Source of the DNA: Thermoplasmata archaeon
Lineage (GTDB): Archaea > Thermoplasmatota > Thermoplasmata > Lutacidiplasmatales > UBA184
Length of the DNA: 33,198 nt
Reading direction: 5' to 3'
NCBI GenBank assembly: GCA_021816955.1
Contig: JAKAWP010000013.1
Span: 1-33,198, forward strand
Shown: positions 8,116 through 11,356 of the stretch, piece by piece
Layout of the letters: the number at the start of each line of letters is the position of its first letter
Numbering within the stretch: the stretch's first letter is position 1
Program-made: the position numbers and the translations under genes
The notes under the pieces: generated by a model
The model's database searches: none
What the model was told of the DNA's origin: nothing
Seen by the model: only the letters and a program-made list of their open reading frames with translations

Positions 8116-8679
8116 GTGCGGCGAGGCGCGTCGGCGTACGAGCGGGAGATCAAGGAGCTGCTCCAAGGCCGCCCCGAGGCAGTCCGCGCCTTCGGACGGT
8201 CGCTCCCGCCGACGGAACGCGAGTCCGTCGAGCGGGTCCTCCGCGAACCGTTCCTCGTCGTTCGAGCCGCGGGGTCGCTCGGATTCGACCTGGTCGCGCT
8301 CCGGGCCGAGTTCGCCTTCCCGATCGAGGTGAAATCGTCCTCCGAACCGACGATTCTGTTCAGTGCGGCGAGCGGCCGAGCGGCCGCCCAGCTCGCCGCG
8401 CACCGCGACGTCGTCCGCCGGGTGGGACTTCTGCTCGTCTACGCCTACCGACGAGTCGGCTACCGCGGGGGAGATCCGTGGCGGCTCTTCGCTGCGACCA
8501 CGCCTCCCCCGGGCGGCACGGCGGCGGTGCTCGGCCGCCGCCTCCCGCCGGTCGACTTCACGCGGGATGGGCGCCCGGCGCTCCGGTGGGAGCACGGAAT
8601 GAGCCTCGTACGGTTCCTGGAGCTGGTGCACTTCCTTACCCGGCGACCGGAGCCTTCCGCCGAGGATCACGTCCCATGA
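8116..8679 (+). CDS. Archaeal Holliday junction resolvase (Hjc)-like nuclease
   Basis: YEREIKELL ... FLVVRAAGSLGFDLVALRAEFAFPIEVKSSS matches Hjc E/R/D/ExK pattern. Confidence 0.72.
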   Translation: MRRGASAYEREIKELLQGRPEAVRAFGRSLPPTERESVERVLREPFLVVRAAGSLGFDLVALRAEFAFPIEVKSSSEPTILFSAASGRAAAQLAAHRDVVRRVGLLLVYAYRRVGYRGGDPWRLFAATTPPPGGTAAVLGRRLPPVDFTRDGRPALRWEHGMSLVRFLELVHFLTRRPEPSAEDHVP

Positions 8680-9812
8680 ACGTCCACGTGATCGCGACGG
8701 GGCAGACTCCGTTCGGTCGCCGTTCGGATGACCTCGTGAGCCTCGCCGCGGAGGCCGGCCGGCAGGCGCTCGAGGGGATCGGCCGACGACCGGTCGATTT
8801 GCTGGTCGTCGGGAACATGCTCGGCGGCGCTCTCGATGGGGAGGAGAACCTGACCGCGGCGATCGCCGACCGGCTCGCCCTCGAGCGGGCGGCCGGCTGG
8901 CGGGTCGACGCCGCGTCGGCGAGCGGCGCCGCCGCCTTCCACTCCGCGGTCGCCGCGGTCGCGTCCGGCGCCTTCCATCGCGCGCTCGTGATCGCGGCGG
9001 AGAAGATGACCGGGGTCCCCAACGATCGGCTGAGTCGAGCGCTCGCGCGGTCGTTGAGCCCGTTGGAGCGGGCGAGCGGCGCCACGATGGCCGGACTGGC
9101 CTCGCTCGTCACCCAGCGGTACCTCGCTCGCTACCCTTCCGCAGCGTCCGCGATCGATTGGGTCACCGTCCATGCGCGACGCCGCGCCGCGCGGAACCCC
9201 ACCGCGCAATTTCGCGAGGCCGTCACGGTCGAGGCGGTCCGGGAAAGCCGATGGGTCGCCCCGCCGCTCCGCCTGCTCCATTGTTCGGCCGTCTCCGACG
9301 GAGCCGCCGCGGTCGTGATCGAGCGGGGTTCGGGAGCCGCGACGGTCCGAGGCACCGGGCAGGCGTTGGACGCTTGGCAGTGGACGGATCGCGCGGACCT
9401 CGCGACGTTCGAGGCGACGCGCGAGGCGAGCCGACGGGCGCTCGGGATGGCGCACGGCCGCCCCCGGGACCTCGGCGTGGTCGAGCTGCACGACGCCTTT
9501 GCCCCGTTCGCCCTGATCGACCTCGAAGACCTCGGACTCAGCGCCCCCGGAGGTGGTTCCGAGTGGTTCTCGGAGGCATCGCTCGGTGCTCGAGGGGCGG
9601 TCGTCCTCAATCCGTCGGGCGGGCTATTGGGACGGGGACATCCGGTCGGCGCCTCGGGGCTGGCGGCGATCGGGGAGATTGCGCGACAGCTTCTTGGGGA
9701 GGCGGGACCGACGAGCGTCGACCCGAGACCGTCGCTCGGTCTCGCGCATTCGATCGGGGGTCTGGGGGCCCACAACTTCGTCACGGTGCTGGGTGACGGA
9801 GGGCGTCGATGA
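8676..9812 (+). CDS. Thiolase-fold (SCP2-thiolase-like) protein, Ser at nucleophile position
   Basis: VDAASASGAAAFHSAV, ELHDAFAPFALIDLEDLG, NPSGGLLGRGHPVGASG thiolase motifs; overlaps DUF35 gene start. Confidence 0.85.
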   Translation: MNVHVIATGQTPFGRRSDDLVSLAAEAGRQALEGIGRRPVDLLVVGNMLGGALDGEENLTAAIADRLALERAAGWRVDAASASGAAAFHSAVAAVASGAFHRALVIAAEKMTGVPNDRLSRALARSLSPLERASGATMAGLASLVTQRYLARYPSAASAIDWVTVHARRRAARNPTAQFREAVTVEAVRESRWVAPPLRLLHCSAVSDGAAAVVIERGSGAATVRGTGQALDAWQWTDRADLATFEATREASRRALGMAHGRPRDLGVVELHDAFAPFALIDLEDLGLSAPGGGSEWFSEASLGARGAVVLNPSGGLLGRGHPVGASGLAAIGEIARQLLGEAGPTSVDPRPSLGLAHSIGGLGAHNFVTVLGDGGRR

Positions 9813-10195
9813 CCGTCTCGCATGAGGTGCCGGTCCAGCGGTGCGATGCGTGCGGCCTCGTGCTCGCCGTCCGGGACGGGCCGTGTCCTCAGTGCGGAAG
9901 CCGGGAGCGCACCCGATGGACCGTTTCCGGAACGGCTCGACTATCGGCGTGGACGGAACTGTCGAATCCGCCGGAAGGGTTTCCGCGGCCCCATCGGCTC
10001 GCGCTCGTGGAGCTCGCTATCGGCTGTCCGCTCCTCGCCGTCTGGGACGGCGAACCCCCGGAGGGAACCGACGCTGTCCGGGTCCGATGGGACGGTTCGG
10101 TCTATCGGGCCCATCGGGCCGAGCCGGGCGAACGCGGGGAGGGGGAATCTCCGGAGATCGACGCGCGCCGGTCCCCCTTTGAACCCCCGAGGTGA
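9809..10195 (+). CDS. DUF35 Zn-ribbon/OB-fold protein
   Basis: RCDACGLVLAVRDGPCPQCGS ribbon followed by OB-like strand region; directly follows thiolase gene. Confidence 0.82.
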   Translation: MTVSHEVPVQRCDACGLVLAVRDGPCPQCGSRERTRWTVSGTARLSAWTELSNPPEGFPRPHRLALVELAIGCPLLAVWDGEPPEGTDAVRVRWDGSVYRAHRAEPGERGEGESPEIDARRSPFEPPR

Positions 10196-10247
10196 AACCA
10201 CCACTGGATTAGCAATCCAGCGCCTTACCGGGCTGGGCTATCCCCGC
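10133..10247 (-). tRNA. tRNA-Ser(GCU) with putative ~31-nt T-loop intron
   Basis: Minus strand: acceptor GCGGGGA/TCCCCGC (7 bp), D arm GCCCAGCCCGGTAAGGC, anticodon arm CTGGA-TTGCTAA-TCCAG, variable arm GGTG-GTTT-CACC, T stem GGGGG (10188-10184)/CCCCC (10145-10141) separated by an extra ~31 nt; discriminator G at 10133. Confidence 0.82.
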
Positions 10248-10271
10248 GCGCCGAAGGGAGGGGCTCCCGGG

Positions 10272-10277
10272 TTTAAA
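10272..10277 (-). promoter_or_regulatory. TATA element for tRNA-Ser
   Basis: TTTAAA located 25-30 nt upstream of the tRNA 5' end at 10247 on the minus strand. Confidence 0.6.
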
Positions 10278-10393
10278 GATTCCTCCGACTGGCGACCCAC
10301 GGTGGGCTCCCGCTCTTCCGGTGCCGAGAGGACGGCGGCGCGGGAACGGATACGGTATGTAGGCGGCCCTCGTTCGGGCCGTGGGGCGATCCG

Positions 10394-11356
10394 ATGCGGG
10401 TCAAGAAGGCCGGGGTAGTCGGCGCGGGAGCGATGGGCAGCGCGATCGCGGAACTTCTCGCGTTCAACGGGATCGACGTCTGGCTCAACGATGTCAGCGC
10501 TCCCGCCGTCGAGCAAGGGCTCGCCCGGGTGCGGTCGATCGTCGAAGAGCTCGTTCGATTTCACGAGAGTCGGGCGGACCGAGAGCTGGAGAAGATCCGA
10601 GAGCTCGGGGTGACGTTGACGGCCGAACAGGTGAGCGCCGTCCGAAGCCGCCTCGCCCCGAAAGTGAGCCGGAGCCGAGGAGAGGAGATCCTCGCGCGGG
10701 TCCACGGCACCGTCGACCTCGCGCCGTTTCGCGACGTCGACCTCGCCATCGAGGCGGTCTTCGAGCAAGAAGCGGCGAAGCGATCCGTCTTCGAATCGCT
10801 CGACCGACTGCTCGGGGACGGCGCGGTGCTCGCCTCCAACACTTCGAGCCTTTCGATCTCCCGGCTGGCGCGCGGCCTCGGCCACGTTCGCTCCACGCTG
10901 GTCCTGCACTTCTTCAATCCCCCTTCCCAGCTCCCACTCGTCGAAGTGGCGGGCGGGGTCGACACGCGCGAGGAGCTTCTGGACGAGGCGGTGGAGCTCA
11001 TCGCGGGGTGGCGCAACCACCGGTATCCGATGCTCCCGATCCGGGTGAAGGAGTCCCCGGGTTACCTCGTCAACCGGATTCTCGTGCCGGTCCTCAACGA
11101 AGCGTGCTTCGCTCTCGAGAGCGGGGTCGCCTCGGCGCGGGACATCGACGCCGCGATGAAGGCCGGCGCGGGGCTTCCGATGGGGCCGTTCGAACTCGCC
11201 GACTTAGTCGGGCTCGACGTGTCGCTCGAGGTGGCGGAGAGCCTGGCTCGAGAGTTCGGCGATCCCAAGTATCGCCCGTCGGTGCTGCTCAAGCACCTCG
11301 TCGACGCCGGGCACCTCGGGCGCAAGACCGGCCGAGGATTCTACGAGTACGCCTAG
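10394..11356 (+). CDS. 3-hydroxyacyl-CoA dehydrogenase
   Basis: GVVGAGAMGSAIAELLAFNGIDVWLND Rossmann motif; NTSSLSISRL; HFFNPPSQLPLVEV; GPFELADLVGLDV. Confidence 0.9.
   Translation: MRVKKAGVVGAGAMGSAIAELLAFNGIDVWLNDVSAPAVEQGLARVRSIVEELVRFHESRADRELEKIRELGVTLTAEQVSAVRSRLAPKVSRSRGEEILARVHGTVDLAPFRDVDLAIEAVFEQEAAKRSVFESLDRLLGDGAVLASNTSSLSISRLARGLGHVRSTLVLHFFNPPSQLPLVEVAGGVDTREELLDEAVELIAGWRNHRYPMLPIRVKESPGYLVNRILVPVLNEACFALESGVASARDIDAAMKAGAGLPMGPFELADLVGLDVSLEVAESLAREFGDPKYRPSVLLKHLVDAGHLGRKTGRGFYEYA

Follow-up and report, generated by a model that had tools for sequence, protein, structure and literature searches.

Introns at tRNA positions 59/60 have been recorded for certain archaea, the rich sources being Crenarchaeota and Nanoarchaeota (PMC4090602). 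For Euryarchaeota, reviews describe α4 and α'2 splicing endonucleases (EndA) as accompanying few tRNA introns, located at the canonical position (PMC4090602, PMC6379350, PMC12397907). The α'2 enzymes are described as narrow, acting on a strict bulge-helix-bulge (BHB) motif, and rich complements of non-canonical introns are tied to the CSL (Crenarchaea-specific loop) or ASL, loops that confer broad specificity on other archaeal enzymes (PMC6379350, PMC12397907, PMC4090602). Our literature search for T-loop or other non-canonical introns in Thermoplasmata/Lutacidiplasmatales, which for euryarchaeal surveys covered open-access papers, found nothing. Herein, we describe such an intron in a 33,198-nt stretch of DNA (the window; contig JAKAWP010000013.1 of assembly GCA_021816955.1) from an uncultured soil/acid-drainage archaeon of Ca. 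Lutacidiplasmatales (Thermoplasmatota), a lineage for which SubAcS10-22, a member of the same genus, is one of the defining genomes (PMC9287336); the "Thermoplasmata-like" origin guessed in the initial annotation was correct.

Read directly, the minus strand at 10133-10247 encodes a tRNA-Ser(GCU) in which a 31-nt insert interrupts the T-loop at positions 59/60 (Table 1). An insert of ~31 nt in the T-loop of a tRNA with this anticodon had been proposed previously from the letters alone; its length is exactly 31 nt, and its location and the anticodon were borne out by the sequence and by ARAGORN, which calls the spliced form (31 nt out) as tRNA-Ser(gct), 84 nt in length with a complete cloverleaf. 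In this form, the acceptor stem (GCGGGGA/TCCCCGC) has 7/7 pairs and the T-stem (GGGGG/CCCCC) has 5/5, with the predicted spliced junction being ...GGGGGTTCAAA joined to TCCCCC... At the unspliced locus, ARAGORN calls no tRNA, and the score under the Rfam tRNA model is 26.6 bits against a gathering cut-off of 29. The sole Rfam match in the window is a tRNA-Thr. A second, intact tRNA-Ser(GCU) had been named in the initial annotation as a finding that would speak against an intron; the assembly (1.42 Mb, 93.5% complete) yielded none. The cognate codon AGC is common in window ORFs, accounting for 31/2310 codons and 31/114 serine codons across five long ORFs. Neighbouring genes lie on the opposite strand, encoding a thiolase-like protein (8478-9812, +) and a 3-hydroxyacyl-CoA dehydrogenase (10394-11356, +); an ORF at 9822-10418 that overlaps the tRNA gene is probably spurious, matching nothing in Pfam.

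Table 1. Features of the tRNA-Ser(GCU) locus, in window coordinates, listed from promoter to 3' end
Feature	Position	Strand	Basis
TATA-like promoter element TTTAAA, about -30 to -25	10272..10277	-	Position conserved in orthologues
tRNA-Ser(GCU) 5' exon, tRNA positions 1-59, 70 nt, 3' end GGGGG TTCAAA	10178..10247	-	
Anticodon GCU, decodes AGC/AGU	10211..10213	-	Sequence; ARAGORN on spliced form
BHB central helix, 5' strand U54 U55 C56 A57	10180..10183	-	
5' bulge A58 A59^G(i1); predicted cut between 10178 and 10177	10177..10179	-	
Predicted 31-nt intron GGGGGACCGGCGCGCGTCGATCTCCGGAGAT, T-loop 59/60	10147..10177	-	
Intron hairpin (h' helix; arms GGGGA..TCTCC, CGGC..GTCG)	10153..10176	-	
BHB central helix, 3' strand GGAG (U54.G, U55-A, C56-G, A57.G mismatch)	10149..10152	-	
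3' bulge A T^U60; predicted cut between 10147 and 10146	10146..10148	-	
tRNA-Ser(GCU) 3' exon, 14 nt: T60, CCCCC T-stem, TCCCCGC acceptor, discriminator G	10133..10146	-	

The TTTAAA box noted upstream in the initial annotation is a TATA-like element whose position is conserved in 27 tRNA-Ser(GCU) orthologues; in these, AT content reaches 0.78-1.00 at -31 to -28 versus a background of ~0.2. When the spliced sequence was used to query 61 relatives, same-genus matches ended at position 70, i.e., at the start of the insert, and orthologues in several of the class's other families matched contiguously over all 84 positions, with no insert there. Within the genus, the exons are 91-100% identical and the insert varies between species with compensating changes. 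Two genomes of the same order (G037, G039; L194, L195) encode a tRNA-Ser(GCU) without a T-loop intron and with a ~36-nt insert near the start of the anticodon stem.

The cut positions in Table 1 were predicted from the BHB rule and the intronless orthologues. To these we added a common register of 40 introns, composed of the 27 Ser(GCU) copies (window gene included) and the 13 other T-loop introns of the window genome; T-stem complementarity was a criterion for collecting these sequences, and neither the hairpin nor the central helix played a part in their selection. Intron length ranges from 28 to 35 nt across the aligned set, and opposed 3-nt bulges (AA^N and NN^U) fall in register in 40/40, with A58, A59, and U60 each present in every copy. 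Bases U54, U55, and C56 pair with the 3' end of the intron in all 40 (the U residues facing A or G), including a C56-G pair throughout. The partner of base 57 changes with it: G57 faces C in 5/6 cases and A57 faces G in 34/34. The central helix is hence made up of four pairs (G57-C) in 5/40 introns, of three pairs plus A57.G in 34/40 (window copy included), and carries G57.G in 1/40. A57.G is the sole systematic departure of these T-loop introns from the strict BHB. The BHB drawn in the initial annotation (TTC/GAG, bulges AAA and ATT, then GGGGG/TCTCC) was borne out as well.

Hairpin pairing in the 40 introns amounts to 88% in register, versus 35-54% upon sliding by 1-3 positions. In a 24-sequence alignment, the covariation score was 0.534 against a shuffled mean of 0.170 (reached in 0/500 shuffles), with changes on both sides in 74 cells versus 22.8 for shuffled data; 0/500 shuffles attained even one of the five measures, which puts the signal far beyond chance. 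In its minimum-energy fold, the window copy forms both the T-stem and the hairpin, and the bases of the short central helix stay unpaired; the evidence for this helix thus comes from comparison and not from energy. Taken in isolation, the arm shows no unusual stability (z -1.05). Intron transposition in Thermoproteales is accompanied by sequence similarity between introns of different tRNAs; by eye, introns of different tRNAs in the present set have the BHB frame alone in common.

The window genome was screened with a covariance model spanning the T-arm together with the intron, and was read in short stretches; this yielded 14 T-loop intron loci. These occupy 14 of the 39 tRNA genes that could be identified (~36%), as compared to intron-containing tRNA genes making up <10% in Euryarchaeota (PMC4090602). 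The affected species are tRNA-Ser(GCU, GGA, CGA), Arg(UCU, UCG), Asn, Gly(UCC), Glu(CUC), Ala(GGC), Gln(CUG), Leu(UAG), Asp, Lys(UUU), and His. The tRNA-Lys(UUU) gene (L098, G000:C72:9975-10113; also L229, L251) carries two introns, one in the T-loop and one in the D-loop, the latter being ~31 nt with a CUGG/CCAG helix and a relaxed motif; similar doubles occur in other families of the class.

The model, constructed from the window genome plus Ser(GCU) of relatives, is GC-rich, such that some introns of relatives may be missed; with this proviso, and among draft assemblies, 58/58 genomes of the window's family in a class-wide sample of 250 gave 5-14 matches and all other families gave 0-5. Those matches in other families that were read also proved to be real 59/60 introns. 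Many lie in Arg, Val, or Lys tRNAs that carry another intron, and the UUCG/CGAA helix is frequently perfect. Judged from these sequences, the class has a low background of 59/60 introns, and the window's family has an expansion. The initial annotation was right but understated the case, as it described a single member of the 14 in this genome and of a trait found in all sampled genomes of the family. The intron-bearing isoacceptors recovered in G018 (5 contigs), in G029 (100% complete), and in G063, a more distant genome, make up nearly the same set, which speaks for an old set passed on by vertical descent. As the model contained only Ser(GCU) from relatives, the other intron-bearing tRNAs of these relatives provide independent confirmation.

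Elsewhere in the same order, G038 (family f3; L193, L240) has T-loop introns of ~13 nt whose UUCA/UGAA helix is made up of four pairs and whose hairpin is all but absent. This genome is AT-rich, its introns are of bulge-helix-loop form, and it gave seven weak model matches. Families f5, f14, f16, f17, f25, and others have 1-5 T-loop 59/60 introns per genome, often in a tRNA-Arg that has an anticodon-loop intron as well.

One EndA gene was found in the window genome, encoding in a single frame a 354-aa protein with two tRNA_int_endo modules, related to the enzymes of A. fulgidus, M. jannaschii, and M. kandleri; homologues with solved structures exist. Its catalytic triad (Tyr292/His300/Lys331, C-terminal module) is invariant in 118 homologues, and the C-domain loop at the CSL/ASL site has exactly 6 residues in 118/118, versus ~16 in A. 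pernix. The initial annotation had advised checking the endonuclease subunit type; the protein is a bimodular enzyme of α' type without CSL/ASL, and would homodimerize. Among 61 relatives, 28 of them good-quality genomes, the matches listed are to this same bimodular gene. The EndA tree places the intron-rich family in one clade (100/100); one intron-bearing genome, G068 (6 intron matches), falls outside it. A single RtcB ligase gene is present (E = 1e-168). Since α'2 enzymes have been published as narrow, they may not cleave the A57.G variant efficiently; preservation of both 3-nt bulges and of the helix register agrees with a narrow enzyme that is indifferent to intron position provided that the BHB is near-strict. 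Moreover, a homodimeric enzyme of α' type from Ferroplasma (Thermoplasmatota) cleaves minimal BHB substrates (PMC8707768), making removal outside the anticodon loop plausible.

We consider it very likely that the tRNA-Ser(GCU) insert is a real archaeal BHB intron at the non-canonical 59/60 position, spliced by α' EndA and RtcB, for which we infer transcription, cleavage, ligation, EndA dimerization, and the exact cut sites to proceed as follows. The TATA-like promoter would drive transcription of a tRNA-Ser(GCU) precursor, in which the T-stem, a 3-4 bp helix (bases 54-57 with the intron 3' end), and the intron hairpin would stack with two opposed 3-nt bulges. A homodimeric α'-type EndA would then cleave each bulge, at A59^i1 and iN^U60, after which RtcB would ligate the exons to afford a normal UUCAAAU T-loop. 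We take the intron to be one member of a vertically inherited set of ~10-14 T-loop introns, carried throughout this Lutacidiplasmatales family.

Were the insert instead retained, the mature tRNA would possess an enlarged T-arm hairpin, able to form a stable coaxial extension. However, this would cost the T-loop/D-loop contact in 14 different tRNAs, and the opposed 3-nt bulges and base-57 covariation are explained by a splicing motif, not by mere extension; the 13-nt version in G038 also keeps the same flanking bulge pattern with almost no hairpin to extend. Retention is for these reasons highly improbable. Integrases commonly target tRNA genes in their T-arms, which would be in line with a mobile-element insertion scar, or else the gene could be a decaying pseudogene; against either, the exons are conserved within the genus at the level given above while changes in the insert compensate, this is the only copy of the anticodon found, the promoter box is conserved, and 13 other tRNAs have the same type of insert, leaving this explanation with next to no credibility.

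An alternative of a different kind accepts the BHB intron and assigns its cleavage to another nuclease or to a second, unassembled EndA subunit of broad specificity. The genome is 93.5% complete, the helix with A57.G is off the strict motif, and the motif of the tRNA-Lys D-arm intron is relaxed, all of which would leave room for such an activity; but only one EndA gene was found, and the matches listed for the 61 relatives are the same bimodular gene, so we deem it very unlikely. Splicing by the α' EndA remains our preferred reading.

Among described systems, the non-canonical introns of Thermoproteota (including the Thermoproteales intron expansion) are similar, as these likewise include short BHB introns at T-loop position 59/60, in several tRNAs per genome, some with two introns. 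There, the enzyme is an (αβ)2 EndA with a CSL, whereas here the host is a member of Thermoplasmatota with an α' enzyme lacking it; also unlike in Thermoproteota, most introns sit at one position, in a near-fixed set across the family. Euryarchaeal introns (A. fulgidus, T. acidophilum; α4/α'2) share the EndA architecture and a near-strict hBHBh' with 3-nt bulges, but sit at 37/38 rather than 59/60. The ε2 system of ARMAN-2 resembles the present one in that a non-Thermoproteota archaeon has many non-canonical introns; the ARMAN-2 EndA consists of three units plus ASL, whereas the present enzyme consists of two modules and lacks any loop insertion at the ASL site. Several assignments were rejected: (i) a canonical 37/38 intron, given the insert at 59/60; (ii) a Thermoproteota-type broad-specificity system, given the single bimodular gene with a 6-residue loop; (iii) an ε2 (ARMAN) system, given a 354-aa two-module protein without insertion; and (iv) a group I/II intron, given lengths of 28-35 nt versus a catalytic core of well over 100 nt. 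The 59/60 intron is of a known kind; what appears to be new, within the literature covered, is its lineage, a near-fixed set spread over many tRNAs at a single T-loop position, and the pairing with an α' enzyme that lacks the loop.

A Thermoplasmatota family in which every sampled genome has 5-14 T-loop introns and the α' enzyme has no such loop clearly runs counter to the pairing of enzymes and introns in the reviews, and provides a natural test of what determines endonuclease specificity. We tentatively raise the possibility, itself rather doubtful, that an α'2-type EndA without CSL/ASL co-evolved with a specialised T-loop BHB having a central helix capped by A57.G (or G57-C), as a third, independent route to massive non-canonical splicing, with the introns perhaps kept through breaking of the T-arm sequence used by integrases. 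Disruption of integrase targets has been proposed for archaeal tRNA introns generally (PMC4090602), and by analogy would suit introns in the T-arm. As the general tRNA searches used here (ARAGORN, and Rfam tRNA at the model's cut-off) failed to call intron-bearing genes or called them wrongly, tRNA inventories for these genomes may be under-counted.

At two loci of the window genome, D-arm inserts are apparent. A tRNA-Gln(CUG) and tRNA-Leu(UAG) tandem (L096, G000:C65:7700-7990; L246) carries a T-loop intron in each gene, with what seems to be a second insert in the D-arm of the tRNA-Leu(UAG). The tRNA-Arg(GCG) gene (L093, G000:C9:22285-22390) has no T-loop intron and appears to contain a ~36-nt intron in its D-loop.
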